Source: Mermis nigrescens (Eukaryota; Nematoda; Enoplea; Mermithida; Mermithidae). Taken from it: 64,000 bases of DNA. How positions within the stretch are numbered: position 1 is the stretch's first letter; each line of letters opens with the position of its first letter. The notes beneath the pieces are model-generated. The model did not search any database. It was not told the DNA's origin and saw only the letters and a program-made list of their open reading frames with translations. The stretch lies in the NCBI GenBank assembly GCA_036768485.1, contig JAVLUZ010000154.1:124001-188000 (forward strand), read 5' to 3'. Of this stretch, positions 9,680 to 48,750 are shown piece by piece. The position numbers and the translations under genes were made by a program.

Positions 9680-11339
<1,660 letters not shown>

Positions 11340-12800: not shown

Positions 12801-12801
12801 T

Positions 12802-13537: not shown

Positions 13538-13545
13538 GGTACATT

Positions 13546-29002: not shown

Positions 29003-29419
29003 GTAGGTAGGTTGTAGGTGGGTAAATACTTGCAGTTTGGCAGGCCTACAGAAAATTTTTCAAATTTTTTTGAGATTCAGTATAATAAGGTCAATTCTTA
29101 TTTGGTGATCATGGATGTGGCATCTGCTTCCATTACACTCATGTAGGTTTTTAGTTATTTCAAATTTTAAAGTTCTCAGGAATGGAATTGCTTTTTAAAA
29201 ATGTTTAAAGAATTGTTTAGTAAAAAGCTTAAAAACCTTGCTTCTAAATTCCTTAAATTAATTGAGTAATCATAAAGCCTTTTCCAAATGATAGGTATAA
29301 TTATTATATCCACAAACAATTATAGCCTACATACTTAACCAACCATAAGTGCCAATTTAATCTCCTCACCTTCGTTTGCCATTCCTATTTCATTCTTTTG
29401 GGCAACTTACCTTTGTGCA
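29003..29419. other. Unassigned AT-rich DNA
   Basis: It lies between the Polinton relic and the start of the ZMYM1-like gene; no promoter element is convincing. Confidence 0.35.
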
Positions 29420-30057
29420 ATGAAGCGCAAATCTGGCCTTGAATCATTTGGCTTTATTAGAAATAGGACATTAGCTGAGGAGGGTGCGCCTATGGTAGCA
29501 GCTGATATTAATCTTGAAGCAGGTGATTCATTAAATGATGCAACAGACTTAAGCAGTTCTGCATCAACAGTGATCAACCTCTGCTATGACATAGGCGAGC
29601 TAGTTGGCAAAAACGTTTCGGATAGCGTAAAACTGAATGTTGTTGAAACAAAATGGAGCGCACTAAATAATTTTTGATGGCCGTTCACAGTTAGAATTTT
29701 GAAAGGGAAGGAAGAAAAGTGCTTTTTGCGAGCCCAGCATTTCAAAGAATATCCTTTTCTCGTTTTTTCTACTTCAAAGCAAGGACTTTTTTTGCAAGTT
29801 CTGTGTTCTTTTCCATACTGGTGGGAGCGCGGGACGTGGTTCTCAGAAATTGGGCTGCCTTGTGAATACAGCACTCACAAAGACAAAGTACGACCAAATG
29901 TTTGGTACTGATGGATATGTTACCGCACATGCTGCTGCTGAATACCATGAGGCTTCCGTGTTAAGAGCAGTTGAGAAACGTTGAAAAAGCCTGGTTCTGA
30001 TATTTTATCTCAGATTGATTCAAATAGAACAAAGCTAATTGAAGAAAACTGCAGAAG
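29420..30057 (+). pseudogene. ZMYM1-like / DUF4371 hAT-type gene, exon 1
   Basis: First recognisable exon of a gene of the zinc-finger MYM-type 1-like class (TTF-type zinc finger, DUF4371, hAT dimerisation domain). It starts at ATG 29420. It reads an acidic leader, DIGELVGKNVSDSVKL, then HFKEYPFLVFSTSKQGLF, then a cysteine pair in the shifted frame and YDQMFGTDGYVTAHAAAEYH. Lesions are a TGA at 29675-29677, a frameshift in the T-run at about 29790, a TGA at 29982-29984 and a frameshift soon after. It ends in NCRR at a donor AGAAG|GTTAAT (phase 2). The phase and sequence continue exactly at 40991, 10.9 kb away. Confidence 0.85.
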
Positions 30058-30440
30058 GTTAATTATTCTCTGCTGAATTTAGGACCTGCCCTGGAGCCCT
30101 GCGTGGGGCGGGTTGCCCCGCCCTGCCCCGCAGGCCTGCGCAGGCATTTTGCGGGGCCAGTCACACGGCTGGTGGAGCGGGGCGGGGCGGGCTTTATTTG
30201 CTAAAAATTTTGGCGGGGCAGGGCGGGCCTTTCTTTTGTTTTAAATTTTTGTTGTGCAAAAGGATACATGCACAAAATTGATTTCCATGCACAAGGTTTT
30301 GCGAAATTGACTATAGTTCTAAGTAATGCTCTGCTGCTCATCCTCTGAATAAATACTTAATGAGATAGAACACATGGGGGCTGTTACAATAATACAAATT
30401 AAAATAATCCAGCTTTACCATGCATAAGCTAACATATATA

Positions 30441-31239
30441 CAGTGTTAAAGAAAAACAAAACCCATATTTGACCTTGTAACTTCCCAATGGCTCGCTCAA
30501 TTCCAATGCAAATTGTTTCAAGCGATTGACAAAAACCTTCGTAAGAAACTTGCCAAGTTTTGTATTAGTAGCTTGCTCTGTTCTTGTGCAACGCGCAATT
30601 GTGTAAAAGTCGTTTTTTTCATTAAATACAATGCGTGTTCAGAAATAAATCATGTGTTTGCAATGTTGTAGCTTCTAATCAAGTGAACAGTTTAGAATAC
30701 AGTCTGCTCTATTCAAAAGCCTTTTTGTCTAGCTGTTAGCCTGTAAATTTTTGTACTATTCCGCTACTTGGTTCAAGAGTTATTGAGCTTTTGCCAAATG
30801 TCATTCCTTAGGTCATTCACAAGCGCAAGCAACTCGCTGCTTATTTTGTCATTGCTGGCTCAATTGCCGAGGGAGTGACCTTAGGCAAAAGCTTAATAGC
30901 TCTTGAACCTACAAACAAAATAAAAGTAAATTTTAGAGGCAACTAGCTAGATAAATGAGCTTTTGATTGAAGCTAACTGTATTCTAAAATGTTTACTCGA
31001 TCTAAAGCTACAATGTCGCAAACACATATTCATTTCTTACGACACATTGTATTTAATAAAAAATTGACTTTTACCCAAATGCGCATTGTGCAAGAGCAAA
31101 TAAAGCTGCAAAAATGAAACTTTGCAAGATCATTATGAAGGTTTTTATCTATTGATTAAAGCAAGTTGCATTCAAATTGAGCGATTTGTTTTGAAGTTAC
31201 AAGGTCTGATATGGGTTTCGTTTTTTCTGAAACACTCTG
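30441..31239. mobile_element. Tc1/mariner-type non-autonomous element with about 50-bp TIRs
   Basis: The left end CAGTGTTAAAGAAAAACAAA and right end TTTTTTCTGAAACACTCTG are inverted repeats that continue inward through ACCCATATTTGACCTTGTAACTT. Both flanks carry TA within ATATATA. The interior shows a second inverted set (CTCAATTCCAATGCAAATTG near 30495 and TTGCATTCAAATTGAGCG near 31167). There is no transposase. Confidence 0.8.
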
Positions 31240-31543
31240 TATATATAGGTAGACAGGTACCTACACACACACGTGTGCGTGGGGGGTTTGGGTGGGCATG
31301 CACCCACCAGAAGTTGAAATAACCCCCTTCCAGAAATCAAAATACCCCCCCCCCCCCCCAGAAAAAATTTTTTTTTGCTTTTTCAGCAATTTTTTTGATG
31401 CCATTGGATAGTGCTTGATGAGAAACGTCAAAAAATGGTGTTTTTTGCCATACAACCAATTTTAAGACCATTTTTTGACCTTTAAAAATTTTTTCAACCC
31501 CCAGAAATTTTTTCACCCCCCCCAGAATTTTGGTGCTGCCCAC

Positions 31544-31640
31544 TAGTGATCGACCGGGGCCCCGGCCCCGGCCCCGGCAATCCCCGGCCATTTTTAAGCA
31601 TCCCCGGCCCCGGCCGCGGCAATGTCAAAAAATGGCCGGG
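31544..31640 (+). repeat. hAT left TIR and CCCCGG subterminal array
   Basis: GACCGGGGCCCCGGCCCCGG and related words, with the mirrored set at 39808-39892. This is likely the transposase-binding region by analogy with hAT subterminal repeats. Confidence 0.7.
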
Positions 31641-32019
31641 GCTGAGGAAAAATTTAGTGTAATTCGTATTTGTACAAGGATGTGATACTGCCACTTATTT
31701 ATCAATGGGCAAGTGTTAATTTTTCGAGAACTGCACTGATTCGACCATATGTATGCATAGTCCTTGTTATATCTTTGCTACTGTGCATGAATGAGCTTTT
31801 ACTGAATAAATGTTCAGGAAAATCTGCATCTTTTGATTCCTTCACTTAACTCATTAAACCAAATGCTACTTTTATCTCATTTATTTGTAGCTAGTGGTTA
31901 AAAGATTTAGAGTTGACAAATACGTTCCATTTCTAGTTAGAAATTGTACGTTTTCAAAAAGACAATTTTTACAAAAAAAACACTTACATTTAATTGAACG
32001 GGAACCGCCTGCTTTAAAA

Positions 32020-32320
32020 CGCGTTTCTTGTGTAATAGTTGGAAGTTAATTGTAATCAAATGTAAACTGCGCTGCAGAATCGCGTCCGATCCGATAAACT
32101 ATATATGTTTACATCCAATACCTATTACACCCAATTGTGCTACATCTCTGTGATTCCACTATACCGCGTTTCTTGCGTAATATTTATTGCAGCAAAAGTG
32201 AATAATAGGCGGAAGTAAACTACACTGCAGTATTGCGACCGATACGATAAGCTAAATATTTCTAATTTATTACGTCCAATACCTATTCCGTCCAATTGCT
32301 ACATCTTTGTGATCCACTAC
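32020..32320 (+). repeat. Direct duplication of about 146 bp in the hAT 5' region
   Basis: Two units share GCGTTTCTTG, GGAAGT, AACTxCxCTGCAG, CGATAxGATAA, CCAATACCTATT and GCTACATCT. They lie upstream of the transposase start, so they could be promoter or subterminal sequence. Confidence 0.65.
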
Positions 32321-32956
32321 TTCTGTTTCTGGTTCTGTTAGTGATGATTATTACTTCTATTTTTCATCAGAGCTTTCTCTTTTATATTCAGTGTCTTTGT
32401 TTCTTATTTTAACTTGCTTGGAAAATTTATGCTCTGTTAGGTAATTGTTTGTGTGCTATCATTTCTACTCGCTTCCAGATAAGCACAGTGAAAAATTTCT
32501 GGGGAGGGGGAGGTGGATGCAATCCAAATAAATTTTTTAAAGTGCCTTTCTTACCGTAAAAACGCTTTAAATGCGTAACACAAAAAATTTTAATAAATTG
32601 CATTGAATTGACCAAAATATAGTCAGAAAGAGACTAATTATTGACAATTTGGCGCAAAGCGCCAAAAATTGACAATTTTGAGCCATTTAAACGCTAAAAA
32701 CTCTTAAATCTAGACATTCCCTATGATTTTTCTAAAAAAGTGTGAATTCTGGGAGGGGTGACAAATTTTTTGCGTTAGGTGAAAATTTTTTTTCGTGTGA
32801 GGGGGTTGAAAACTCCCCGAGCCCCCATGATCATGTATGCTCGCTTCTATAAGTTAGCTCTCACTGAAATTTTCCATTTAGATTACATCAAATCGCAATT
32901 ATATTCAGTTACTGTTTTTAGGATTTATAACAAATTTATTTTTGTTTGCTATATGA

Positions 32957-33873
32957 ATGACTAGCAGCCAGGAGTCCGTAGTTTGGCAATTTTTTGAAAT
33001 TGACCCTACAGATCAGACGACAGCAAAGTGCATCAAATGTGAAAAAATATACAGTCGAGGAAAAACGCCTAAAACATATTCAACAAAAAGCTTGCACGAT
33101 CATCTGAAGAAGAAACATAAACACAAATATGAAGCAGCTCAGGAAAAGAAGGATGAAGAGCGAACAAATGATTGTGCATCGCGTGCCGAATCCGTCAAAC
33201 GCATGAAAAGCTTGAAAGATGTCGAAGGAGAAAGAACAAATCCTAAGCAGCTCAAAGTTGATGAGCTGTTTCAATCGCGCCAAAAATACAACGCAACTCA
33301 CCAGGATCAGATTAAGCTAAAATTCAAGCTGATGGAGTGGTTGGCAGATGCAGGACTGCCTTATACAGTGGTTAAGAACAATCAATTTAGATTATTCATT
33401 GATATGTTGAATGGCCGATTCAATATTCCTACTGAAAAATACCTTAGATCAGCATTGATGCCTGAAATGTACATACGTGTAAAGCAAGAAGTGCGGCGCT
33501 TAGTTCAATAAAAGGCAGAATTTTGTTCAATTACGACGGATATTTGGAGTTCTGCCGCTATGGACGCATACTTAGCAATCACGGTCCACTTTATTGAAAA
33601 TGAGACTTGGGAGCGTAAGGCAGTTGTGGTCGAATGCTTGCCTTTTTGGATACACATTCAGGAGAACACATAGCCACAGCTTTAAAGAAGGTTCTTAAAG
33701 AATTTGGCATTCTGGATAAATTACATATTGTGGTCAGGGATAACGGAGCCAATGTCATAAAAGCTATGGAAGTAGGAAATTTCAAAAGTATTGGATGCTT
33801 TTTGCATAGCCTCCATTTAGTTGTGCAAAATAGCCTATCAAGCCAGCAAGCCGTTGTTAATTTACTATCAAAA
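32957..33873 (+). pseudogene. BED-hAT transposase (ZBED-like), exon 1
   Basis: The start is ATG 32957. Residues about 8-55 form a BED zinc finger: VWQFFEID, CIKC, then HDHLKKKHKHKY with the ligand His residues. A linker follows, then FRLFIDMLNGRFNIPTEKYL, TTDIWSSAAMDAYLAITVHF with the first catalytic Asp, HSGEHIATALKKVLKEF, and VVRDNGANVIKAM with the second. Two lesions: a TAA stop at 33509-33511 between LVQ and KAEFC, and loss of one T in the T-run at about 33642. It ends at TCAAAA|GTAAGC in phase 0. With the T restored in the count, all seven exon phases match. Confidence 0.92.
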
Positions 33874-33883
33874 GTAAGCTAAC

Positions 33884-34075
33884 CACACTTGGGTGTAAGG
33901 GTCTTAGGGGAATTATGCACCCCCCCCCAAGATCTGCTGGACCACCCGGAATTTGGCGGACCCCCTAAATCGATATTTGTTGCTATAACCCCAGAATTGC
34001 TAGTTTTGCACTTTTTTGCCACTTGACCCTATTCGGACCCCCATAATTTTTTTGCTGCCCAGGTATGCACCCAGT
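33884..34075 (-). repeat. Repeat family B in hAT intron 1
   Basis: It starts CACACTTGGGTG, 10 bp after the exon 1 donor, and contains GGCGGACCCCCTAAATCGAT and GACCCCCATAA. It ends GCTGCCCAGGTATG. Confidence 0.65.
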
Positions 34076-34685
34076 AAGTCTGAAAAAATAGTAAACTAAT
34101 GTACTATGCAATAAAATATGTACTAAATTGTCCGGCATTGTTCAGAGGGGAAAGCAAAAAGTGTAATTTATCATTTCATAGTCTGCTGCTGGATATAAAT
34201 CAGTTAATGGTACCTAATCATTTAATTTAACATACTCCAAAATCGTTACAAATAAAATAACTAATTTAAAAAAGGAAAATAATGGATTTTCAGATTTTTT
34301 CTTTTATATTTTACATTTCATTAAACATTGTTCTTACAAAGGAAAACAGAAACCTTGGTGTGATCACTTATCATACTCACGTCACGATGCTCCTTAGTTT
34401 TTCATTACATATATGGGATAACCAAAGAACTTTTACTTCACATTAGGTTACATAAAATAAGCCCTCTAGGTTTTACTCATTTTGGGCTTTATTCTCTAAT
34501 TTGATCGTATTCTATTTTTAATATTTATATTGAGTATACGAGTGAATAAGTTCTTATATTAAATTAAAATAGATTTTTATTTTTATTTAAATCTTCTCAT
34601 ATTTAAATAAAGTCAAATTTTAATTATTTTGATTATTGATTTATTTTTTTATATTTTTGACTAGCAAAGCAATCTTAAATTCCAG

Positions 34686-34931
34686 GTACGATACATAGCA
34701 AGAACTGTGCGGCACAGCACAAAAGCAAAGAATATGCTGCTATTGGCTCAAAAGGAAGAAAATCTGCCACAGCACACGATCCTCATCGACCAACCAACCA
34801 GATGGAGTAGCACTTACACAATGATCAAACGCTTTCATGAACAAAAGCAAGCAATAAAACGCGTTTGTTGCGAGATTGATAAATTGAATGATTGCATGTT
34901 AACCAACAATGAATGGGAAATTTTGCCAACG
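34686..34931 (+). pseudogene. BED-hAT transposase, exon 2
   Basis: Bounded by TTCCAG and CCAACG|GTGAGT, 246 bp, phase 0 on both sides, no lesions. It encodes VRYIARTVRHSTKAKNMLL and LIDQPTRWSSTYTMIKRFHE, the hAT-specific TRWxSTYxMLxR block of the insertion domain, then NNEWEILPT. Confidence 0.93.
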
Positions 34932-34989
34932 GTGAGTGTGAGAATGTGATGACAATATGCTTTGTTAACATACGTGCAACCAACAAATC

Positions 34990-35170
34990 ATAGTTGCGGG
35001 CCATATTGAGGGGGTAAATGACCTCCAATTTTCGATAATAGATGGCAAAAAGGTACATAAAATGGCCTAAAAACGTTCTTTTTCACAAAAGCAGGAGGTT
35101 GACAAACAATTTTCTCACTTTAGGAAGATGATGGTCGACTTTGAGGAAGAGCGAGTCCGCCACCCCAAAA
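34990..35170 (+). repeat. Repeat family D in hAT intron 2
   Basis: GAGGGGGTAAATGACCTCCA, AAATGGCCTAAAAACG and GACTTTGAGGAAGAG match the 40570-40795 copy. Confidence 0.55.
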
Positions 35171-35479
35171 ATAAATTTTTTTTACATTTTAAAATTAATT
35201 TTTAAAATAAATTCATCTTATTTTATTTCGAATGTAAAAACATCCTATTATGCGGGTATATTTACAAAAATTTTATTTTTATAACTGCACTGATATCTGT
35301 TTTTTTCCCCACAAGTATAAAACTCCAATAAGATGTGCATGCAGAAGCTGTCTTATGCAGAAAACGCATCGCTTGCGAACAGCTATGGAATCCAATTTAT
35401 GCAAAATAGTGTATCTTATTTTCATGTCAGTTTGATAATGATACAAAACAGTACTTTAATCAATGTCAGATAATAAATA

Positions 35480-35830
35480 TACACACCCCGTATCCAGGAT
35501 TCCGCCAAGGGGAACGGACCCAAAATAAATTGGTCTATATCTCGGAAAATTAGCAAGGATAGCTTGCGAAAACCGCATTTTTTGACATTTATTAACGTGC
35601 TCTATCCATTAAGACAATAAAATTTGGAATTTTTGAGAAAAAAATTCTTTTCTGTTTTTTGGTTGCGCCTGAGGCAAAATGATAGAAAATGATTGAGATA
35701 CGGTGCAAAGCGCCAAAATTTTGATGATTTCATGACTTTGCCATGCAATTTTTCCATCTCACGTCATTCCACGCTCCAAAATTTTTATTCTGATTAAGTG
35801 GGGGGGGGGGCCGCCGTCCCCTAAATGGTA
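35480..35830 (+). repeat. Unclassified G/C-ended repeat in hAT intron 2
   Basis: Bounded by CCGCCAAGGGGAACGG and GGGGGGGGCCGCCGTCCCC; the interior contains ATCTCGGAAAATTAG and CGGTGCAAAGCGCCAAAA. The phrase GCAAAGCGCCAAAA recurs at 32654 and 60470, but no full copy is present. Confidence 0.45.
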
Positions 35831-36022
35831 ATCTGTATATACATACATATATACCTTTATAATGCTAGAAAATCAGAACACCTTAATTGTGATTATTTTT
35901 TCAATTTTTGTGACTGTTGATGGTTTCATTATGAAAACAAAAAATGATAATGCAGCAACTCTTGAGAAACACGTTCTATGCAAATCTAATAAATCTTAGC
36001 ATATAGTTTCTTAATCTTTCAG

Positions 36023-36111
36023 CTTACGGCGCTATTGAAAATTCTTGCACACACGGTTAAACTGCATGAAAAGGAAGGATCGTGCATCTCCGAAGAATTG
36101 ATTGAAGCAAA
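36023..36111 (+). pseudogene. BED-hAT transposase, exon 3
   Basis: An 89-bp exon from CTTTCAG to CAAA|GTATAT, encoding LTALLKILAHTVKLHEKEGS and CISEELIEA. It enters in phase 0 and leaves in phase 2, matching exon 4. No lesions. Confidence 0.85.
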
Positions 36112-36469
36112 GTATATATAATTCTTTATCTCAATAATTAATGATCAATTAATAATTTTATCAGTCAATGTGATCTACGCACGTCATGGAAGAGTTTAAT
36201 AATTAAAGAAAAAAGACAAGAAATGCCATTAAGTTCAGAATATCATCTATAGTTATTTATTATGTATGTGTATGATTAGTTAATTTTTGTGAGGAGGAGA
36301 CATATTAACTGAGTTGGAAGAATTTAAAAGACTTTGAAAGTTATTCAGATTTTCATGTGTTAAAGCAAAAAGAAAAATGTATGTAAACAAAGTTAAAAAA
36401 TCCAGAAATCACATTAATTTCTACAATTTGTTAAGCAGTTGCGCTTACACATGTTTGTGGGGCATACAC

Positions 36470-36685
36470 ACGCATAGGGAGGGGTGAGAGGGGATGTATA
36501 ACCCCCTCTGAAGGAGTCAAAATTTAAGGACTATCAAGCAATTTAGGCCCAAAATGGTATATTTTCAGGAAATTTTAACAGCATATCTCAAAACTGCAGG
36601 TTGCTACATCAAAAATTTCAGATTTCACCCCTGATAACAGATTCTGGATTTTAACCCTCTCAGGCTACCCTGACCATGCACATCT
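36470..36685 (+). repeat. Repeat family F, copy 1 (hAT intron 3)
   Basis: From CACACGCATAGGGAGGGGTG to CTATGATG. It shares TATAACCCCCT, CAAAATTTAAGGACT, CAAGCAATTTAGGCCCAAAA and CACCCCTG with copies at 38005 and 39085. Confidence 0.7.
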
Positions 36686-36689
36686 ATGA

Positions 36690-36835
36690 TGTGTGGGTCT
36701 GACTGGACCCCCTCAGGATCCAGGTGACTTACCAAAATCGATATTTTTGCCAGACCCCCAGAACAGCTATTTTTGACATTTTTCGTCATTGGACAACACC
36801 TAAACCCCAGAATTTCTTTGCTGCCCATCTATGGT
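36690..36835 (-). repeat. Repeat family B (hAT intron 3)
   Basis: It contains TGTGGGTCTGACTGGACCCC, AAAATCGATATTTTTGCCAG and TTTGCTGCCCATCTATG, directly next to family F copy 1. A partial related block follows at 36855-36925. Confidence 0.6.
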
Positions 36836-36994
36836 TGCGCTGAGTTAATACCACACATGCGTGGAAGTCTTGGGGTCAGGCTGGACCCGCAAGAAACTGG
36901 TGGACCACCAAAAAGTGAAAATGTTTCCAATTACATGCATATGTGTAGATTAAACCGCAGGCTCGATTATCTCATCTACTTAAATTTCTTTCAG

Positions 36995-37175
36995 ATGTCT
37001 GCTATTTAACCTCGTAAAAGGGAATTTTCCCCAACTTGGCACGCTCTTGGAGCAGATTTTGACAAAAATCGATCAATACTTCTACGGTGGCGATAATAGG
37101 AATCACTTCGGATCCATTGAAGAAAACAAACTGTTCACTATTGCAACACTTCTTGATCCACGATTTAAAAAAAAG
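36995..37175 (+). pseudogene. BED-hAT transposase, exon 4
   Basis: A 181-bp exon after TTTCAG. It encodes LLFNLVKGNFPQLGTLLEQ and the hallmark TIATLLDPRFKKK (ATLLDPRFK in ZBED/hAT proteins). It leaves in phase 0 at AAAAAG|GTATGC. No lesions. Confidence 0.93.
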
Positions 37176-37478
37176 GTATGCGTAAAAAAAGAAAAGATTA
37201 ATTAGAAACGGGCTTTTATAATGTGGTTCAGAAAGTCCCCATTCACTAGACTTCAGACTGCTCATTGACTGATCAGTTTCTGCAAGGGTGATGCTGGGCT
37301 AATACTTTATACTAATTCAGCATAACATTACGAAATGCGGGTTTGTTTCATCATCATTATTAGGTATTTGTATATTGTAGTTTCTGTTGTAAGGTGATGG
37401 TTGTATTTGTTATTTTTTAAATTAGTGAGCTAATTAGTATAGTACGATTTGCTGAAATGATAAATGTATGTTTTCCAG

Positions 37479-37627
37479 ACCTTTCGAAAATCCAGCTCTT
37501 CTGATCAGGCAGAAAATACGCTGGTTCAACTCGTTAAGGAGCAAATCTTGTTGCGGAGGAAAGAAACAGAATCCGCTGCCAGTCGGAGCAGTAGTAACCC
37601 ATCAAGAGGAAAATCTGTTATTGCAGA
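37479..37627 (+). pseudogene. BED-hAT transposase, exon 5
   Basis: A 149-bp exon after TTTTCCAG encoding a polar low-complexity linker (ESAASRSSSNPSRGKS). It leaves in phase 2 at GCAGA|GTAATT. The phase matches exon 6 and restores a Glu codon. Confidence 0.85.
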
Positions 37628-38004
37628 GTAATTGTAATTCAAATTATTAAGTAGTAGTGAGTGAGTAGTATGTGAGTTAGCATAGCTTAAATTAAGATAT
37701 ATATTTTGTGGATGGATATTAGCCTAAATGAAATTGATAAATAATAGTTTTTATTTTTGAGAATTGGATTGTTTCATACACATATACTTCACTGAACAGT
37801 ATAACACCAAACTTTATTGAAAGAAAAGCCATCTACTAGCTTTATTTATCAAAAAAGAATAAAATAATATTAATATTGAAAAATTATACCAAAAAATATA
37901 ATACTATAAAATAACAAATTTTTTATTATTTTATACATACATAATGTACATATTATAATCGCGTGTCTGTTTTCTTTATCTTGCATTATACATAGGTACC
38001 ATAT

Positions 38005-38232
38005 ATGCACACACTTAGGGAGGGGTGAGATGGGGTATTACCTCCGCTAAAGGTGTCAATATTTAGGTACTGTCAAGCAATTTAGACCCGAAATAGTATA
38101 TTTTCAAGCAATTTTATTATAATATACTTCAAAACTGCAGACAACTACAGCAAAATTTTAGGATTTTACCCCTCCCTGATGACATATTCTGGGTTTTAAC
38201 CGTCCCAGGCGTGCGCATCCATGATAGTTAGG
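38005..38232 (+). repeat. Repeat family F, copy 2 (hAT intron 5)
   Basis: CACACACTTAGGGAGGGGTG to GCGCATCCATGATAG, colinear with the other two copies. Confidence 0.7.
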
Positions 38233-38327
38233 TGCAAATGAATTGCAGGTCATTAAATAATTAAAGCATGCATTTTAGATTTGTTTAATTATAGATATAT
38301 TATAAAATATATTACATTATATTATAG

Positions 38328-38535
38328 AGCCATTCAACCATTTTTTAGACACTATGCTGCTATGCTAGAAAGTTCATCAGGCCAAGATGAGTTTGACAAG
38401 ATAGACCCCTTATCTGCGCAACAGAGAGCAAAAGCAATAACGGCTGACTATATGGCAGACCAGCGCATCAATGTTGAAGAATCGCCTTTGACTTACTGGA
38501 AAATCAACAGTCATAAATATCCAGAACTAGCAGTA
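38328..38535 (+). pseudogene. BED-hAT transposase, exon 6
   Basis: A 208-bp exon after ATTATAG encoding AIQPFFRHYAAML and ESPLTYWKINSHKYPELAV, the conserved P-L-x-YW-K-x-N-x-x-x-YPxLA block containing the family Glu region. The donor GTA|GTAAGC lies 7 bp from a later MITE insertion (38542). Confidence 0.92.
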
Positions 38536-38541
38536 GTAAGC

Positions 38542-38698
38542 ATACATGGGCACTGGGCAGCAAAAGATATTCTGGGGGTACGGATGGAGTCAAAGAGCAA
38601 AAAAGTGGCAAAAATAGCGATTCTGTGAGGTCTAGCAACAAATATCCATTTTTGGGAGTGTCCGCCGCATTCTGGGGGTCCAGCCTACGTCCATGTGT
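38542..38698 (+). mobile_element. Repeat family B MITE at the hAT exon 6 donor
   Basis: A 157-bp element from CATACATGGGC to CCATGTGTG. It is flanked by GTAGTAAG (38534-38541) and GTAGTAAT (38699-38706), an 8-bp duplication with one mismatch. The target overlaps the exon 6 splice donor, so the donor sequence is now present twice. This copy shows that family B transposes like hAT. Confidence 0.8.
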
Positions 38699-39084
38699 GG
38701 TAGTAATTAACCTGCTTCCTGAGGTCATTAGAAGCATTCAAAATACGTCAAATTGAATGCATGACTTTATCTAAATAACATTATATAATAAAAATAAATA
38801 ATAATTATCTAAATAACATTATATAGGTACATTGTACATTATAATGTTTCTATAATTGCACTGGTTCAATAAATCCCAATATGATTACTAAGAAAAATAA
38901 TTTATGCAAATTGTATTGTTATGCTGAAGGATTAATATAAAGAACGAAACTTAAGAAAAATTGAAGTAATAAAATAATGGAAATGTTTTACTAATTATAA
39001 GAAAAATTGAAGTAGCAAAAAATATATAACAAATTGAATTTTAGAACTTTCTGATCATGTGTTCCTGTTTTGCTGTTCACCTTA

Positions 39085-39290
39085 CACGCACATAGGGAGG
39101 GACGAGGGAGAGGTATAACCCCCTAAAGGGACCAAAATTTAAGTATTGCCGTGCAATTTATGCCCAAAATAGTGAATTTTGAAACAATTTTGACGTAAAA
39201 TCCCAGATAAAAGCTACTTACTGTGGCGAAAAAACCTAGATTTCTTCACCCCTCCCTGACTACCCTGGCCATATGCATCTCACGTTTGCT
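39085..39290 (+). repeat. Repeat family F, copy 3 (hAT intron 6)
   Basis: CACGCACATAGGGAGGGACG to GCATCTCACG with the same internal words (GTATAACCCCCTAAAGG, TATGCCCAAAATAGTG). Confidence 0.7.
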
Positions 39291-39331
39291 ATTCATGTGA
39301 TGCTTTCTACGCAAGTTCATCTTTATTTTAG

Positions 39332-39640
39332 CTCGCCAAAAAATACCTCAGCCCGCCTATTAGTTCCGTGTCCAGCGAACGTGAATTCAAGTCAGCTCGT
39401 GATTTAGCTAATGGTTCAAGAATTCGATTGAAGCCAGAAAATCTTCAAAAGCTCTTATTTCTAAAGCATAATTTGCGAGCAATTGGATTCGATACATGGA
39501 AGCTCCCAAGCACTTTGGCTGATGAGCATGTAGAATGTGGCGCAAGCAGCAGCAGTAGTGAAGATTCAAACGATATCGAGTGTGCTAATAGCAGTGACAT
39601 AGAATTTGTCGATGATTCAGACCATGAAACACTGGACTAA
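39332..39640 (+). pseudogene. BED-hAT transposase, exon 7 (dimerisation domain)
   Basis: Last exon after TATTTTAG. It encodes LAKKYLSPPISSVSSEREF, KSARDLANGSRIRLKPENLQ and KLLFLKHNL, the hAT C-terminal dimerisation domain, then an acidic Ser-rich tail and TAA. An AATAAA polyadenylation signal follows at 39666. Joined exons give about 699 residues, a normal ZBED-type hAT length. Confidence 0.93.
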
Positions 39641-39969
39641 ATCTGTTTCTTGTGACATAAATAGTAATAAAACTTGATTTGAAAAGGCGCCCCTAACTTT
39701 GCATTTGCCATTTACTACTGAATGGAGCAGTCGCTCATTATTATTCTTATGCCCACCCCAAGTATGTGTCTGTTATGCAATAATATTTTCCTAGTCTGAC
39801 TCTCCTGCCCCGGCCCCAGCCGGGGCCGGGATATTTTTCAGCCCCGGTACCGCCCCGGCCCCGGCCAAAAAAGTCGCCCCGGTCGATCACTACTGCCCAC
39901 CTATGCCTACATATATGTAGGTACACACTACGTCCTTACATAAGGTAGATATCACCTATATGATTTGAG

Positions 39970-40110
39970 TAATGGCGAGCTTTGGGATCTGGGTTGTCCC
40001 CTGGGATCCAGCAGACCCCCAAAATTGGTTTTGTTGTGCTAGTTTTGGTGATTTTGCCCCATTAGACCCCCTCAGAATATGAGCAATCAGCAGTGCAAGA
40101 TTATGCCTTT
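39970..40110 (-). repeat. Repeat family B, decayed
   Basis: GGGATCCAGCAGACCCCCAA and ATTAGACCCCCTCAGAA resemble the B family; ends not resolved. Confidence 0.45.
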
Positions 40111-40569
40111 TGAAGCTTACCTACATACCTAACTACACCTATCACAGTAACATCATTGTTGTTCCAATAAAGTTTATTGCTGTAAGACATTGGCTCTTAT
40201 TCAATTTACAAAATTGCATTGCACTCATTTACATTAAAGATTTTGTATCACTCATTGTCTGGTTCTTTATCTTCTTGCATTCTGGCTCCTTTTCGACCAG
40301 AAATGGATACATAGAGTACATGAAAAAAATTTTGCGGGGCGGGGCGGGCCTAATTTTTGTAACATTACTAGCGGGGCGGGCCTAAGGAGCTGCGTGGCGG
40401 GGCAGGCTCTATTTCTTTCTTGGCGGGGCAGGGCAGGTCAAAAAATTTTGGCCCGCGCAGGGCTCTGACCTGCCCTAAAATTATAGCAAAAGCATCAGAT
40501 GATCCAATTTTTCAGAATATTCAAAAAAGACACAAAAGTGAATTTCCCCCAGGTCTTCATTGATCCTCA

Positions 40570-40795
40570 AAATGCAGTAATGGCTCAAAATTTCAGGTGG
40601 GGGTCCCCGGCCACTTCTTAGGAGGGATGGGGGTAAATGACCTCAAACTTTAGCCAAAATGGCCAAGAAACGCCCAAAAATGACCAAAAAAAAATTTTGT
40701 TGTTCCAAAATGGGGAGGGTCAAAATTTTTGTGTCATTTGAGGAAGAGGGGACAACTGACTTCTGGGTGGGGGATATCCCCTTGTTACATGTATG
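40570..40795 (+). repeat. Repeat family D in the ZMYM1-like intron
   Basis: From CAGTAATGGCTCAAAATTTC to GATATCCCCTTGTTACATG. This is the most complete copy in the window. Confidence 0.6.
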
Positions 40796-40990
40796 TTAAG
40801 AACAGCTAATCGAGTTTTTGGGGGAGAAATTTTTGTATTTTCTCCGTATACTTACTGCACATTTAAATAGAAAGCCTGACTTGATAAACCCGCCAACCCT
40901 TTTTTACCATTTTTTAGATATCCCATATTTGGCAATTAAGCCTATTTTGTAAATTCTTGTAAGCCTTCAAATTACTTATTCTGATTCTAG

Positions 40991-41200
40991 GCTTGTTCCT
41001 ATCATCAAAACATTGTTGAACTGCGACCAATTAGGAATCGCACTCAGAGGACATTGAGATGATGGCTCTCTTGATTTTTCTGCTTAGGATTTAGATTATC
41101 TGCAGCTCAATCGGTCTGATGGAAATCTCAAATGTATGCTTAAAATTTGTTTAGATGCTGGCATTAAAGTTTTAGAGAAACACTTATTGACTGAACATGG
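40991..41200 (+). pseudogene. ZMYM1-like gene, exon 2
   Basis: It follows the acceptor TTCTAG at 40990 and completes the split Arg codon from 30057. It encodes LVPIIKTLLNCDQ, then the family signature LGIALRGHxDDGSLDF (x is TGA, 41055-41057), then SDGNLKCMLKICLDAG and EKHL. A second stop, TAG, lies at 41085-41087. The GHRDDG-type motif is characteristic of DUF4371 proteins. The exon runs into a 19-bp hairpin at 41187. Confidence 0.85.
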
Positions 41201-41228
41201 TTGTCTTTAGACGACCATGTTCAGTCAA
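41187..41228. repeat. Perfect-type hairpin, 19-bp stem
   Basis: TTGACTGAACATGGTTGTC, loop TTTA, GACGACCATGTTCAGTCAA; only one pair is G-T instead of Watson-Crick. It sits at the 3' edge of ZMYM1-like exon 2. Confidence 0.85.
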
Positions 41229-41716
41229 AAGTAGTCAAAAAAGTGAAAGCAGTGAGTTTTATGATTTTAGCGTAGTGTGCACTTGCTTAAGTCGCTAGCA
41301 TTTTTTTTGTACAAGGTTTGTTTGTACATGTACAAAGATGGTCCCTAAAAGTCTTTGTACGTTTTTTACACATAAATTTTTGGGCACTACTATAATATGG
41401 TACTGTAGCTATTTTAGTGTGGCAAAATAACATTCTTAGACCTAGTGTATTTTAGATAACTTCTGGGCTTCTAAGGGCAAAAATCACTAATAATTGACTC
41501 AAAATGGTGCAAAACGCCAATAAATTCGTCATTTTTCCTTTCAAAATGCAATTATAAAACAATTATAAAATTTCAAAATACAATTACGAAATACAAATCA
41601 ATTACTCATTTTTGACGCAAAGCACCGAGAAATTTTTGCGAATTTTAGATCTTTTTGCAATTTTTGTCTTCTCAAAAATCTTGGTACATGTACAAAGATG
41701 GTCTCCAAAAGTCAGG

Positions 41717-41969
41717 CACGTATCATTGGGGGAATGGAAGGGGGTATGCAACCCCTGAGAAAGCAAAATACCACCAAGAAAGCAAAATACCCTCCAGAAT
41801 TCAATTTTTGAATTTTTTAGTTTTTTTTGCAATTTTTGATGCTAATGGATAGTGCTCCATAAGAAAAGTTTAAAAGTAGTGTTTTTTTGCCATATCACCA
41901 TTTATAGGACCATTTTTTACCTCTGAAAAATCTTGCACCCTCCCAGAATTTTAGTGCTGCCCACGTATG
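41717..41969 (-). mobile_element. MITE family 1, copy 10
   Basis: Reverse copy with C-rich blocks, CCAGAATTCAATTTTTGAA and the GCTGCCCACGTATG terminus. The left end is decayed and no clear TSD is visible. Confidence 0.75.
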
Positions 41970-42099
41970 CTTCAGACCCCTCCTTTTGAATGTTATTTTG
42001 TGCTGTTTTTGGCTTTATTGGGCTTAGTCTCCCCAGAAATTGGTGTTGGTCTCCCCAAAATAGGACAGCCAGCTATGTGACTGCCAAAAGTCTTTATAT

Positions 42100-42299
42100 A
42101 TTGGGAAAAATCTTTGCCAAATACAAAAAACACTGTAAGTTGCTGATAATTCATGTTTTATGCGCAATTTTTTCTGTGCTCGCTGATGAAACCACTTATA
42201 TTGTGACTAATGAGCAGCTGAGCTTAGGCGTGTGATATGTTTATGATGGCGCAATTCGCGAGGACTTCTTAGGATTCACAGAAGTTACTGACTTAACAG
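42100..42299 (+). pseudogene. ZMYM1-like gene, exon 3
   Basis: Encodes FSVLADETTYIVTNEQLSLG, the family's first catalytic-region motif (ADETTD in active members, where the last Asp is Tyr here). A TGA and then YVYDGAIREDFLGFTEVTDL follow. It ends at the donor ACAG|GTAGCA in phase 1. The 5' boundary is uncertain. The missing Asp and the stop at about 42233 mark it as non-functional. Confidence 0.8.
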
Positions 42300-42361
42300 G
42301 TAGCATGATGTTTCCTGGCTAATTCATTTAGTCTGTCACTATGCAAGTGCATGCATTTTAG

Positions 42362-42436
42362 GAGCAGGCTTGGGAAAAACGATTCTCTCTGAGCTCGTTG
42401 CACTTGGAATTGATACAGATTTCCTAGTTGGCCAAG
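42362..42436 (+). pseudogene. ZMYM1-like gene, exon 4
   Basis: A short 75-bp exon between TTTTAG and CCAAG|GTAGTC, phase 1 on both sides. It encodes GLGKTILSELVALGIDTDF and LVGQG, matching the region before the usual GQGYDGA motif. The following exon(s) with the central hAT core were not found between here and 46640. Confidence 0.75.
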
Positions 42437-42967
42437 GTAGTCTTTTCAAAATTTTCAATTGCTATGCTAATATTTCTTTACTGGATATATGCAGTGTTGG
42501 CAGAGTTAACTCTAACTCAACCCATAATAGGGTTAACCTATCACTTTTTCAATAGAGTTAACCCTATTTTGGGTGAGTTAGTGACCATTGTGGTTAACCC
42601 TAACTCTTTGAATTTCCAACCAAGAAAGGGTTAAAAAAGGTGAGTAACTTATTCATTAATGCAGCTATAACTTACAATTTTTATTACTGTTTTTTTCAAG
42701 TAAATAATTCCCATCGTTGTCATCTCCAGTGTTGCCGAGTTAGGAGTTTTCCCCAATTTAGGAGTATTTTTGTGGGCATTATGGGCACCTTGAAGCAATT
42801 GGGGTTTTTTTGCGCCTATGCTTCACCATTGTGTAGGGGGTTTTAAAGCCATTTTTAGCCATTTTGAGGTTTTTTGTGACCAAAAATGGGGTTTTTGACA
42901 AGAGCATGTGGCAACCCTGGTTGTCTCATTGATCGAGCCAATGTGCAACCTGGCTGGTTGTCTTAAC

Positions 42968-43210
42968 CACACCTGGGCGTGGGGGTTTGGGGGGGTATGC
43001 AGCCCCCCAGAAACCAAGATACTCCCCCCCAGAATTCAATTTTTGAAAATTTTTTTCGTTTTTTTCGCAATTTTTTGATGCCAATGGATAGTGCTTGATG
43101 AGAAACGTCGAAAAATGGTGTTTTTATTGCCATACCACCATTTTTAAGGCCATTTTTCGACCTTCAAAAAAATCTTGCACCCCCCAGAATTTTCTTGCTG
43201 CCCACGTATG
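42968..43210 (-). mobile_element. MITE family 1, copy 11
   Basis: Complete reverse copy, CACACCTGGGCG to GCCCACGTATG. Perfect 8-bp duplication GTCTTAAC at 42960-42967 and 43211-43218. This is the clearest proof of the family's TSD length. Confidence 0.92.
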
Positions 43211-43316
43211 GTCTTAACGCCTCTTCTTGCGTGGTGCTGTTTACTTTCCTTTCCTTAATCACTCGTTTTTCCATCCAAGCTTTTTCAATATGCATGCTTT
43301 TGCCAATAGATTCCCA

Positions 43317-43638
<322 letters not shown>

Positions 43639-44390
43639 ACAAAGCTTGGCAGCTCTTGTTACTGCCTAAAAGCAGCCAGGCAAGTATTGTTTGATCTTTG
43701 TTGTTGCAATTGTTGCAAGTTTAGGGTTTGCTGATTTGGAAAGGGGCTTTGTCTTTAGAGCAACTTCAATAAAGATGCATAATTTAAAAGTCCAGTCTAT
43801 TTTGAATCAAATTTTTTGAGTGCGAAAAAGCGTGCTTTGTTCATCATATAAATAACCCTTTTAAAACGGGTTAATGCTTTTTAAGGAATAGGGTTAGAGT
43901 CAACTCTAACCCTATTAACTTTTTATGGAATGGGGTGAACCCTAACCCTAACTCTATCGTATTTTACTAACTTTGCCAACGCTAGATATATGACATGCAT
44001 GCATTCATTGTTTTTATTGACTCTCTTCACCCTTGATTCTGAAAAGTATTTTTGGCTGGTAATTGAATGAAAGTCTAAATAAAAGGAAAGGTTATGCTCC
44101 AAAATTTTCACTTAAATTCACAATTTGATCTTAATATGCTTTTAGTCTAGCCAAACTATATAAAAATATGAGTTTAGATTATAAAACAAGCTTCGACCAA
44201 AATATTTTTTTCAATTTGCTTATGTAATGTAACTGTCTTATAGAATAGATATAGGATTGTTTTCATCCACATTACCTGTTCACTAAAAATTAAGTGAAGA
44301 GAAGATGAAGCTTTATAGGAAATCTCAGATCTTATAGATTGAATCCTTTATTTTGTTTTTGCTTTCTCACATTCAAACGTTTAATGTCAT

Positions 44391-45391
44391 CATAGATTCT
44401 TGAAGCATGCATTGTTTAATGGTTTTCCGGGCAAGAAGGAAGAAACTGTGCTGGCGATCGAAAAGATGAAAAGTAAATTTTTATATACTTAAAAAATTGA
44501 TCATTTTTTATAAATTTTATTATTGACTTAGATGATGATGATGGTCAACCATCAGAGAAAAAAGCGAATTTCAGCCAAAGGATAAAGAAATGCATAGTAA
44601 CCACATATGGGCATGGGGGGGTTTGGGGTATGCACCCCTCAGGAGTTGAAATACCCCCTCCCGCAGAAATCAAAAAATACACCTCCCCCGAGAAAATTTT
44701 TTTTTGCTTTTTTAGCAATTTTTTTGATGCCATTGGATAGAGCTTGATGAGAAACATCAAAAAATGGTGTTTTTTTGCCATACGACCACTTTTAAGACCA
44801 TTTTTTAACCTTTAAAAATTTTTTCACCCCCCACCCAGAAATTTTTTCACCCCCACAATAGAATTTCGGTGCTGCCCACCTATGATGGTAATGCAAATTT
44901 TAATATTGTTAAAGTAATCGTTTCATTTTTACAAATTTTTTCCCTTAATGTAGATGATGGTGATGTTCAGCCGTTGGGAAAATAGAATTAAATCATAGAA
45001 TAAAGAAATGCTTGGTAATGCAAATGTTTATATTGCCTAAAAACCATTTTATCTTTTTTATAAATTTTTTTCATTAAGGTAGATGAAGTTGCTGGTAAGC
45101 TGTTGGAGAAAAAAATCGATTTTCAGCCAGAGGATGAAGAAATGCTTGGTAATGCAAATTTGTGTCTCTCTTTCTAATATGCAATTCTTATGACACATGA
45201 ATTTAGATAGTTATTCAACTATTGATTCGGGATTTGCAACTCAGCAGGAAGGAGACATATTGAATGATGAGCAGGAACTGCATCTATATCCCTCACAACC
45301 TCTTATGAATGACAGGAGCTTTGATATATATCTGCCCGATTTATTATTCCATGTATATCATTCACAAAACGATCATAATTATACTCATTAG
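44391..45391 (+). CDS. Unknown gene fragment with a triplicated 66-bp exon
   Basis: Possible exons in order: 44391-44468 (FLKHALFNGFPGKKEETV), three related short exons (about 44533-44597, 44955-45014, 45081-45146), and a terminal exon from 45207 to the stop at 45391 (SYSTIDSGFATQQEGD...). Each short exon follows a TAG acceptor and ends before GTAA. The third is 66 bp in phase 1 (DEVAGKLLEKKIDFQPEDEE) and joins the terminal exon in phase. The first is one base shorter, and the second contains TAG/TAA after a deletion, so only the third unit is clean. Function unknown. The gene lies in a ZMYM1-like intron on the same strand. Confidence 0.5.
44602..44884 (-). mobile_element. MITE family 1, copy 12
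   Basis: Reverse copy from CACATATGGGC to GCCCACCTATG, with flanks ATAGTAAC and ATGGTAAT (six of eight match). The target was the splice-donor region of the first repeated short exon; equivalent GTAATGCAAAT follows the other two copies. Confidence 0.8.
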
Positions 45392-46074
45392 TTCATGTGC
45401 ATGTGTGATCAGTAGTCAAACCATGGTATAGTATTGTTTTATCGGATGATGTTTTATTAGAAAATAAATATAACAATGAATCACATATTAATCGATAACA
45501 AATATGTACAAAGTATGAAATTTTGTTCCTATAAAAATTCCTCTTATATTTCTTATTATATCTATGTATTATCTATGCATGAGTGAACAGCGGCCAAATT
45601 CTAAGGGGTGGGGAAAAATATCCAAAAATAGCAACAACAAAAATATAATTCTGGGAGTCTACCACTTTTCTGGGGGTTTAGATTTTCACGCTCATGATTT
45701 TAAATTGTTATATGTGCTGTGATGATCTTATTATCATCCAGATTGGGGGTCACACAGATAAATGATTAGTTGTAAGCATTACACAATAAGTACATAATTT
45801 TAGCGTAATGCAACCTAAAATTGATTCATCCAATAATCCTGATCCAAGGGCAGATTTATGGATGCCCTGCAGGATTATGCTGATTTGTGGGTGGGCAGGG
45901 GCAGAAAGCCGGTAAATGTAGGTACCCTAGTAACAAGCTCGCCTCCGGGGGTATAATGACATCAGCTTGCTTGCTTGGTAGGATCATAATACGGCTTAAT
46001 CTTGTATTTAGTGCATGTGCACTTAGCAGGCATTCTTCATCATATACTCCCAGGGTACTCCTGTGTTACTACTG
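45392..46074. other. Unassigned, with a decayed family B repeat
   Basis: About 45590-45700 contains CAAATTCTAAGGGGTGGGG and CTACCACTTTTCTGGGGGTT, resembling family B. The remainder is unassigned. Confidence 0.4.
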
Positions 46075-46580
46075 AGGGGACTAGGGAAAATTTCACTATA
46101 TGCGCAGAAGCCATAGGACTGTGCTAAATAGTTAAACTTCCCTAGAAAATGCAAAAATTGAAGTATATTCTGTGGCCTGTGAAATATGAGGGTGTAGTCA
46201 CAAAGCATATTTAAGTGTTTCACAAAATAGCATTGAAGACACTTTCATGACTATTAAATAATCAATGTATTATTTATTTAATGAAATCTTGACCTTTCAC
46301 AGTGCTCAGGAGTAAAGAGATAATAGTGTAAATTATACACCTACATGGCCAACTCAATAGTTTTCTTGGAAAATCACAAAAAATTTCTTTAAATTTACCA
46401 AAATAAAGTAATCAAAATACTCACCTCGCCACCAGTCAAAATTACTATGGAAAATCTGCAGAAACACGCATAGGCCGCAGAATATACATACATCAATTTT
46501 TGTGTTGTTTAGGGGAAGTCCAACTGTTTAGCACATTCCTATGGCTTCTGCGCATATAGGGAAATTTTCCCTAGTCCCCT
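46075..46580. mobile_element. MITE with about 68-bp terminal inverted repeats
   Basis: The left arm AGGGGACTAGGGAAAATTTC...GAAGCCATAGGA is mirrored by the right arm ending CCCTAGTCCCCT. Complementarity runs about 68 bp with a few mismatches. The 370-bp centre is AT-rich with no coding capacity. A target duplication was not resolved, so the superfamily is open. Confidence 0.8.
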
Positions 46581-46639
46581 CCTTTTACATCCTTAGCAAT
46601 AAAGAAATTCAAGTATATTTACCTTTTTTGTTCCATCAG

Positions 46640-46862
46640 AGCATTTTTCTTTGCTTGGAGAAATAGCTGACGTTGAACTCAGTCCACCACATACAGTAAG
46701 TTGGCAGACTTACAGAGACAATGCTCTGTTTTTGTCAGCAAAAGAATATTTCAAACAAAACATATATCTGCGGTTTATGGATTGTTTAAATTCATAGTTT
46801 TCTTATGGATTCAGAAATCATCAAGAAACAGCCTCTGCATTGTCTCTGCTTATTCTAAAAGT
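46640..46862 (+). pseudogene. ZMYM1-like gene, later exon (hAT core)
   Basis: After the acceptor TTCCATCAG at 46639 it reads IADVELSPPHTVSWQTYRDN and AKEYFKQNIYLRFMDCLNS, a TAG at 46795-46797, then HQETASALSLLILK. This corresponds to the conserved Arg-Gln-x-x-Arg-x-Asn and EEYF region of DUF4371/hAT proteins. Confidence 0.75.
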
Positions 46863-46919
46863 TGACTGTATACTCATTTAAATTTATTTTTTGATTTCAC
46901 GTAAATAATTTGGTTTTTT

Positions 46920-47117
46920 AGCTGCCTTCCCCAGGGATGAATGATGCCCAGTGTTTGATTTCTACTAAAGCTTTTTGACTCAAACAGCAACAGTTTTTGG
47001 TGGAGCTCTAACTTTGATTCAAATTTTGGAAAAATGAGACAAACCTGCCTAAAAACGGCATTGACGCCTTGATTAATTGTTCGTCAGAAATTTTCCCAAA
47101 TGTTCACACGCTCTTAC
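46920..47117 (+). pseudogene. ZMYM1-like gene, penultimate exon
   Basis: The readable part is WKNETNLPKNGIDALINCSS and EIFPNVHTLLQ, the linker just before the hAT dimerisation domain. The expected donor is CAG|ATGATT instead of CAG|GTGATT, so the splice site itself appears mutated. The next exon continues in phase at 47578. Confidence 0.75.
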
Positions 47118-47577
47118 AGATGATTATTCATTTTAGTTACTAACTGCTATTTAGGTCAAATTGTTGTTCAAATAATATTTCTCCCTCAATAATCAGTCGT
47201 GCATTAAATTGATACAAAGACTGATATTTTTAAGAAAAATGGAAATGCAACCTATTTTTCATGTTCATGTATTTGCTGTCTTAATTTTACAAGCTAAAAA
47301 TTGGCACAGAATAGTTTAAACTTATTTTTAGTCTTGTCCTGTGACCGCACATAGGTGTGGGATGTTGGGGTGCTAAAGTCCTAAAATCAGAAACCCCCAC
47401 AGATTGCTTTAGAACTACAGAATTGTATTTTGAATCCATTTTCTTGCGATTTCGGTCCATCCATACCCTCAAAAATTGGTTGCTGCCTTGCGCATTTATG
47501 GTCATGCGTGACTTAAACATTTCATATGACTTTCTTACTGTAGCCTTCACTTACCTAACAATCTCTTCCTTTTCCAG

Positions 47578-47785
47578 ATATTAATTACACTGCCAATAAT
47601 GACTAGCTCAAACAAATGCAGCTTTTCAACTCTAAAGTTCTTGAAGAAGTATTTGTGGTCTACAATGTGTGATAATTGTTTGACAGGTCTTGCACTTTTG
47701 TACATACATAAAAAATTGATGTTGCTTTGATAGTGTGATCAATGATTTTGCATTAAGTAACCACTGGTTAGAAATTGTGTTATGA
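47578..47785 (+). pseudogene. ZMYM1-like gene, last exon (hAT dimerisation domain)
   Basis: After TTTTCCAG it encodes ILITLPIMTSSNKCSFSTLK, KYLWSTMCDNCLTGLALLYI and, after one frameshift near 47727, VINDFALSNHWLEIVL and a stop. This is the C-terminal hAT dimerisation domain (SFSTLKxLKxYLRxTM and GLALLxIH in the family). It closes a gene spanning more than 18 kb. Confidence 0.85.
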
Positions 47786-48509
47786 TAGATTTCAGTTTCA
47801 TTTGCCATCGTCAATTGCAAATAAAGTGTGCAATGCATGTCAGAATCTTGTTTTCTGTCTGTTTCTTCACAGAAGATGAATGCTTCATATGTACCTTCCT
47901 ATGAAGTTCGCATTGAGCTGGCTGGTACTTACTCTGACTTTCGCCTGAGTGAAAATTTTTAAAGAGGTGAAGCTTAGGTCTCACAGTTCTTCATTTATAG
48001 TTTGCTATTGAAAAAGTAACAAAACCTAAAATAAAGCAAACATCTCTATTACTTCCATACCTACAATTGAGACAAAAATGGAGGTTTTAAAGCTTAACTA
48101 ATATTCTAAAAATTCAGACCGCCCCCAGTAGTACATCCTGACCCTTCAGCGCCTCCGTGCTTAAGCATAGCACATGCTTAAGCATAGAGACTCCATTTGG
48201 ACCATGCACACTCTTAGTACACTTTCACTGAGCCACTTGAATTGCCAAATTTTTGGCCATACTACTACGCCTATGCGTGAAGCGCCCAACAATGCACAGT
48301 TGGTTATCCAGGACGGGCAAAACCAATTGATTTCAATTTGCATAACTAGCTAGCAACGCCCCCATGCTATTGCTCTAATTTTATTTCAGTTTTAGTTTAG
48401 CTATCTTAGTTGACTTGCAGACAATGAGTCATCACAGATTCTATTTTTAAAACAAAATTTCAAAAAAACAAAAATTTTTGGTTTCACTGATACCAAAAAT
48501 AGTCTCATC
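47786..48509. other. Unassigned sequence downstream of the ZMYM1-like gene
   Basis: A tiny open frame begins at about 47876 (MNASYVPSYEVRIELAGTY) but nothing is recognised. GCTTAAGCATAG is repeated at 48158 and 48176. Confidence 0.35.
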
Positions 48510-48750
48510 CACACCTGGGCGTGAGGGGTTTGGGGGGTATGCACCCCCCAGAAACCAAAATACCCCCCCCAGAATTCAATTTTTGAAATTTTTTTTTGTT
48601 TTTTTCGCAATTTTTTGATGCCAATGGATAGTGCTTGATGAGAAACGTCGAAAAATTGTGTTTTTATTGCCATACCACCATTTTTAAGGCCATTTTTCGA
48701 CCTTCAAAAAAATCTTGCACCCCCCAGAATTTTCTTGCTGCCCACGTATG
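48510..48750 (-). mobile_element. MITE family 1, copy 13
   Basis: Complete reverse copy, CACACCTGGGCG to GCCCACGTATG, with perfect 8-bp duplication GTCTCATC (48502-48509, 48751-48758). Nearly identical to copy 11, so the two probably transposed recently. Confidence 0.92.

Follow-up and report, generated by a model that had tools for sequence, protein, structure and literature searches.

The transposon nest described here lies in a 64,000-nt window of Mermis nigrescens DNA (contig JAVLUZ010000154.1 of assembly GCA_036768485.1), of which the region 29000-48500 was read directly. Very probably, a degenerating DUF4371-type transposase-like sequence in this region has collected a series of cut-and-paste insertions of hAT type, marked by 8-bp target site duplications (TSDs). 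A hAT-like non-autonomous element would have entered one intron of this pseudogene; a miniature inverted-repeat transposable element (MITE) of family 1, which has CA..TG ends, would then have entered the hAT-like element; and a hAT transposon with a BED zinc finger (BED-hAT) would then have entered the 3' terminal repeat of the family-1 MITE. The MITEs inside BED-hAT, those of family B and others, would be either later arrivals or sequences already present in its introns when it jumped. Because the TSDs are 8 bp long, a length usual for hAT elements and known also for the Mar MITEs, every insertion is taken to have begun with a hAT transposase making a staggered cut, the gaps of which were then filled, and the MITEs would have been mobilized by hAT transposases.

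Four levels are bracketed in the intron. The outermost, the hAT-like non-autonomous element (30092..40467), has ends TGGAGCCCTGCG / CAGAGCCCTGCG that match as inverted repeats at 10/12 positions and is flanked by ACCTGCCC on the forward strand at 30084..30091 and 40468..40475, the right copy agreeing with the left at 8/8 positions; in both respects it conforms to the hAT features examined, and no other copy of it was found within the window. Filled, it measures 10,376 bp, and 1,730 bp remain when level 2 and one copy of the level 2 TSD are subtracted. The second level is the family-1 MITE (31268..39905, forward strand), which is 281 bp long when emptied and is bracketed by CCTACACA (31260-31267) and CCTACATA (39906-39913), a 7/8 match. 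The third is BED-hAT (31544..39892, forward strand; 8,349 bp), with identical 17-bp terminal inverted repeats (TIRs) and an 8/8 duplication of CTGCCCAC (31536-31543 and 39893-39900), and the fourth is a family-B MITE of 159 bp (38541..38699) between GTAGTAAG (38533-38540) and GTAGTAAT (38700-38707), which match at 7/8 positions. All of the TSDs that had been named in a preliminary description of this DNA were located by sequence reading where it had placed them; its claim of 8-bp duplications holds in full at levels 1 and 3, but at levels 2 and 4 the copies agree at only seven of the eight positions, and its count of five layers becomes four bracketed levels with the pseudogene substrate as the fifth. 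A palindromic (foldback) segment of ~0.8 kb (30434..31246; arms 74% identical), situated between the left end of level 1 and the family-1 MITE, has TA-rich flanks in which no TSD could be resolved, and may either have inserted on its own or belong to level 1.

The junction of BED-hAT with family 1 is the one at which a filled site can be compared with empty sites. The emptied copy from the nest, used as a query, detected full or partial family-1 copies across the window at 17 other candidate places; nine of these (a-i) were aligned with the nest copy, and the TSDs of seven (a-f and h) were scored by eye. The preliminary description had proposed excision in silico as a check, and when BED-hAT is so removed, the family-1 MITE is continuous across the join, like 9/9 of the other aligned copies in the window. 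Since these copies are uninterrupted, BED-hAT landed inside family 1. The TSDs match at 8/8 positions for copies d (42968-43210; GTCTTAAC), e (48510-48750) and f (13270-13537; AATGTACC), at 7/8 for h (30-307), at 6/8 for a (44602-44884, forward strand; ATAGTAAC/ATGGTAAT), and at 5/8 for b (55243-55525) and c (62308-62586). Family 1 is therefore multi-copy, short and non-coding, with constant ends and a perfect TSD in three of seven scored copies, as expected of a MITE family. Copy a occupies one of three tandem units; the remaining two are empty there, their sequence running on without a break. Copies b and c, which share their flanks and have a Kimura two-parameter distance of 0.026, derive from a single insertion that was duplicated with its surroundings, and so two of the nine aligned copies represent one insertion; the larger repeated unit that carries the MITE along at these two places has a third partial piece that ends at 49091.

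Other arrangements of family 1 were observed in the window. On the reverse strand at 12800-13545, the full MITE flanked by AATGTACC is followed by two partial units head to tail, and the MITE end plus AATGTACC closes the full unit and also the first of the partial ones; the array looks like a tandem duplication. A composite segment at 41713-42083, of which the left part resembles family 1, has a TSD at its outer ends (CCAAAAGT, 8/8). Two exact family-1 DNA patterns, one searched against viral contigs and the other against genome contigs, gave no matches in collections that may omit the window's own genome.

Assuming that the boundaries of an element are fixed in advance, an 8/8 TSD is expected by chance with p ~3e-5, and a TSD of at least 7/8 with p ~6e-4. 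A blind scan of 29000-48500 for TIRs of at least 10/12 with TSDs of at least 7/8, from which low-complexity ends were dropped, produced 24 matches, compared to 25, 17, 16, 19 and 16 in five flank-shifted controls; the 8/8 class produced three, compared to 1, 1, 1, 1 and 0. Two of these three are BED-hAT (12/12 and 8/8) and the outer element (10/12 and 8/8), and levels 1 and 3 stand without evidence from family membership. The third (38344-45041) extends from inside a BED-hAT exon to the pseudogene region and is presumably due to chance. A scan for CA..TG ends (TIR of at least 6/12) yielded eight matches at 29400-47800 (3-8 in seven controls), of which three were in the 8/8 class (controls 0-1), and over the whole window it yielded 42 matches (controls 20-31), of which eight were in the 8/8 class (controls 0-4). 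Blind scanning for TIRs with TSDs was dropped as proof of all levels, the class of at least 7/8 being at the level of noise in the region, and for the same reason levels 2 and 4 depend on the boundaries of their families. That both 7/8 brackets arose by chance and that these MITEs are not separate insertions is in keeping with the absence of enrichment of this class in the blind scan and the regional CA..TG scan; the excess over controls in the whole window, the multiple copies of family 1, some of which carry 8/8 TSDs of their own at matching ends, and the CAYACATGG-type ends of family B, to which two segments in the window are related, make such a coincidence very improbable.

Certain observations weigh against the proposed series of insertions. 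The comparison of filled and empty sites covers one of the four junctions (BED-hAT in family 1) and none for levels 1, 2 and 4, which would be separate insertions at this place; the TSDs of levels 2 and 4 contain one mismatch each, which places them in the class that blind scans of the region do not separate from noise; the left TSD of level 2 sits in a CA-rich run; and a search around the DUF4371 pseudogene gave no convincing terminal repeats, so that it may be either a mobile copy or a gene that was retired.

The transposase of BED-hAT is encoded on the forward strand by seven exons (32957-33873, 34686-34931, 36023-36111, 36995-37175, 37479-37627, 38330 (or 38328)-38535, and 39332-39640) separated by GT..AG introns. 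Exon 1 is broken by a single in-frame stop and a single frameshift, the coding sequence totalling about 2.07 kb, and the present copy is predicted not to be autonomous. A read-through composite matched the zf-BED (PF02892; E 1.9e-11) and Dimer_Tnp_hAT (PF05699; E 2.5e-17) models, and unbroken single pieces matched them as well (E 3.8e-12 and 2.9e-9, respectively); the hAT-like RNase-H model (PF14372) was below cut-off with both the single pieces and the read-through. Homologues numbered at least 53 among 7,995 candidates scored, and the nearest three among the matches listed are 45%, 42% and 35% identical. A profile built on 15 sequences aligned with Hermes transposase chains over most of its length (E down to 1.2e-49), placing TTDIW, VRDNGAN and SSERE of BED-hAT opposite TIDLW, VTDRGAN and ASERT of Hermes, with the D, D and E motifs kept; these D, D and E positions are taken to be the catalytic residues. 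Along with these positions, BED-hAT possesses the BED finger, the C-terminal hAT dimerization domain, the 8-bp TSD and the short TIRs that it shares with members of the hAT superfamily (Hermes, BuT2/Tip, ZBED1-like). A PDB search with the N-terminal piece alone found nothing, and a search for N-terminal relatives in viral contigs gave four pattern matches of which none was confirmed, in a collection that may omit the window's own genome. According to one report (PMC3942097), hAT elements have 8-bp TSDs, TIRs of 10-25 bp and lengths of 2.5-5 kb, and the transposase gene of BuT2 has five exons; BED-hAT is likewise multi-exon, but at 8.3 kb it is larger, through its MITE-bearing introns and its 5' region. 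Several of the introns contain MITE-like segments, and the 5' region contains a MITE (32476..32839) with an 8/8 TSD (CTCGCTTC).

The intron that holds the nest (30058..40990, forward strand) was described earlier as a 10.9-kb intron of a ZMYM1-like gene, with its donor at 30057, its acceptor at 40991 and matching phases. The intron is confirmed: GT..AG and the phase can be read off the sequence, both flanking exons are backed by homologues, and the length is 10,933 bp as found, or 549 bp once the nest is taken out. The host as an ordinary gene is not: it is a decayed DUF4371 / hAT-dimerization transposase-like pseudogene (29420..47724, forward strand). Among its 85 protein homologues, PF14291 (DUF4371) is present in every one and the hAT dimerization region PF05699 in many, and the best E value for DUF4371 relatives is 4.5e-56. 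With the homologues as queries, tblastn placed exon pieces in conserved order on the forward strand from 29420 to 47724 (29420-30057, 40991-41201, 42170-42304, 42355-42438, 46657-46854, 47021-47125, and 47530-47724, the ends being approximate except for 30057/40991). When three single pieces and a partial composite were scanned directly against Pfam, no family was matched, and for this reason the DUF4371 assignment is based on the homologues and tblastn. The recognized pieces contain five in-frame stops, the first piece contains two frame changes, and residues 401-611 (about 210) of P0055 had no tblastn match in the pseudogene at E<=1; together these indicate a transposase-like pseudogene rather than a functional gene. 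Its likeness to DUF4371 / ZMYM1-like / '52 kDa repressor'-like sequences consists of the homologues with PF14291 and PF05699 and the conserved order of the exon pieces; the difference is that the present copy is decayed, lacks a match to those residues and has no terminal repeats that could be found. The best candidate pair of terminal repeats, with an 8/8 TSD (AAAGCTTA) and agreement at 10/14 end bases, was rejected as unremarkable by arithmetic alone, ~3.4 million pairs having been compared. Three tandem exon-like units, one with a MITE, are present at 44475-45159 in the pseudogene region.

The preliminary description held that the order of insertion could be read directly. For the outer element, the family-1 MITE and BED-hAT, the geometry supports this order, provided that the inner levels did not travel in with an outer one; for family B, nesting proves entry into the BED-hAT lineage but not entry at this locus. 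Family B is the weakest of the four levels. By similarity, two segments in the window are related to it, and the copy at 38541-38699 is the only one found there with a bracket. In the last intron of BED-hAT, the 5' splice site (GTA|GTAAG) is straddled by the family-B TSD, and therefore a donor sequence remains on the exon side. Creation of this intron by family B, in the manner of an introner, was discarded because 624 bp lie between the right TSD copy and the exon that begins at 39332.

Divergence was estimated as three-point branch lengths with bootstrap 95% intervals, which are upper bounds on the age of insertion. The branch of the family-1 nest copy is 0.042 (0.013-0.072) by way of copies a and b, and 0.035-0.061 by way of four other pairs, and the branch of the family-B nest copy, from three copies of about 160 bp, is 0.127 (0.056-0.210). 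The intervals are wide and overlap, so that the innermost step is not confirmed by them and the locus does not furnish the clean relative clock that had been expected of it. For another family in the introns of BED-hAT, three related segments gave branches of 0.103, 0.161 and 0.417. The coding sequences offer another comparison: one stop in 2,067 bp of BED-hAT corresponds to K of about 0.011 (95% 0.0003-0.060), and five stops in 1,566 bp of the pseudogene correspond to K of 0.071 (0.023-0.166). The higher stop density of the pseudogene is in the direction that nesting predicts, although the contrast is not firm (P 0.057 for equal density). Assuming 0.1-0.2 indels per substitution, the one frameshift of BED-hAT fits K of ~0.02 or less better than 0.04.

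The view that all four levels were inserted here strictly from the outside inward, with family B arriving after BED-hAT had landed, has a reasonable chance of being correct, somewhat short of even. The geometry allows it, family B has a TSD pair of its own, and the larger value of its branch, being an upper bound on age, is compatible with a recent arrival. It sits less easily with the apparent youth of BED-hAT, which has only the two lesions in its coding sequence, an 8/8 TSD and 17/17 TIR matches, and with a family-B branch that exceeds the branch of the family-1 host copy, which is necessarily older than the landing of BED-hAT, overlapping as their intervals are. About evenly poised is the proposal that family B and other intronic MITEs entered the BED-hAT lineage as passengers before its last jump, in which case the innermost step of the order is reversed. 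This would account for the contrast between the divergences of family B and family 1 and for the further intronic segments with long branches, and the window contains a precedent, a MITE that was copied along with the larger unit around it (the copies at 55243 and 62308). Moreover, none of seven marked MITE-like segments lies in a BED-hAT coding exon (P 0.077 if they were placed at random), which would be the outcome if selection still acted on the transposase at the time of their insertion, but the list of seven is not exhaustive and the boundaries of five were set by eye and similarity. All of these lines are weak, given the overlapping intervals, the P value and ages that are upper bounds; together the data from the window weakly favor family B as a passenger. 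A bolder proposal, which is tentative and rather unlikely, is that BED-hAT represents a long-lived active lineage that hauls MITEs in its introns and seeds a ready-made multi-MITE nest with each jump; if so, nesting depth would systematically misstate the order of insertion.

Layered insertions of this kind had been called rare, a judgment that finds no support in the window itself, which contains another nest, additional bracketed MITEs and the MITE duplicated within a larger repeat. The second nest, downstream, is a hAT-like element (42492..43984) with ends CAGTGTTGGC / TAGCGTTGGC and an 8/8 TSD (GATATATG), inside which are a MITE (42727-42919; TSD 6/8) and the family-1 copy d with its perfect TSD; an AT dinucleotide run of more than 300 bp also lies within it, at 43312-43639. 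This nest, the ~0.8-kb palindrome, the MITE at 32476..32839 and the MITE-like segments in the introns of BED-hAT are additions to what had been described. Elsewhere in the window, a 264-residue open frame on the reverse strand (14950-15744) matches DDE_Tnp_4 (E 3.2e-31) and is presumably of Harbinger type, and a frame on the forward strand (9910-10335) matches HTH_Tnp_Tc3_2 below threshold (E 7.9e-5) and is Tc1/mariner-like. A 110-residue piece at 28141-28470 (forward strand), considered as a Polinton-type DNA polymerase, had no Pfam match, and the idea remains a guess from visual inspection. Nothing was reported by Rfam or tRNA scans.

To derive chronology from nested elements is established practice: TinT (PMC3014933) uses nested elements to order transposon activity, and interruption analysis (PMC2517846) uses element-in-element insertions to order or test it. 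Those methods depend on genome-wide counts, whereas the present single locus provides one ordered chain and no rate. In a study of rice MITEs (PMC6171319), "nested" denotes overlapping TIRs, mostly overlapping calls of one element, at 0.13% and 28% by two programs; no usable published rate for MITE nesting was found, and a literature search for nested hAT-type MITEs together with 8-bp TSDs found none. Families 1 and B resemble hAT-type MITEs such as Mar (PMC3517528) in being short and non-coding with terminal inverted repeats, and differ in having no identified transposase source. The locus is a well-preserved instance of a known process, an ordinary nested-transposon locus, and its value is that of a compact, verifiable case in which elements inserted one after another and one empty site has been demonstrated. 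A pitfall of deducing order from nested positions is exposed as well, since an inner element may be cargo of the element that surrounds it, a matter that only further copies of the surrounding element could decide. Confirmation that family B was a passenger would be an argument that chronologies of nested insertions should be corrected in MITE-rich genomes.

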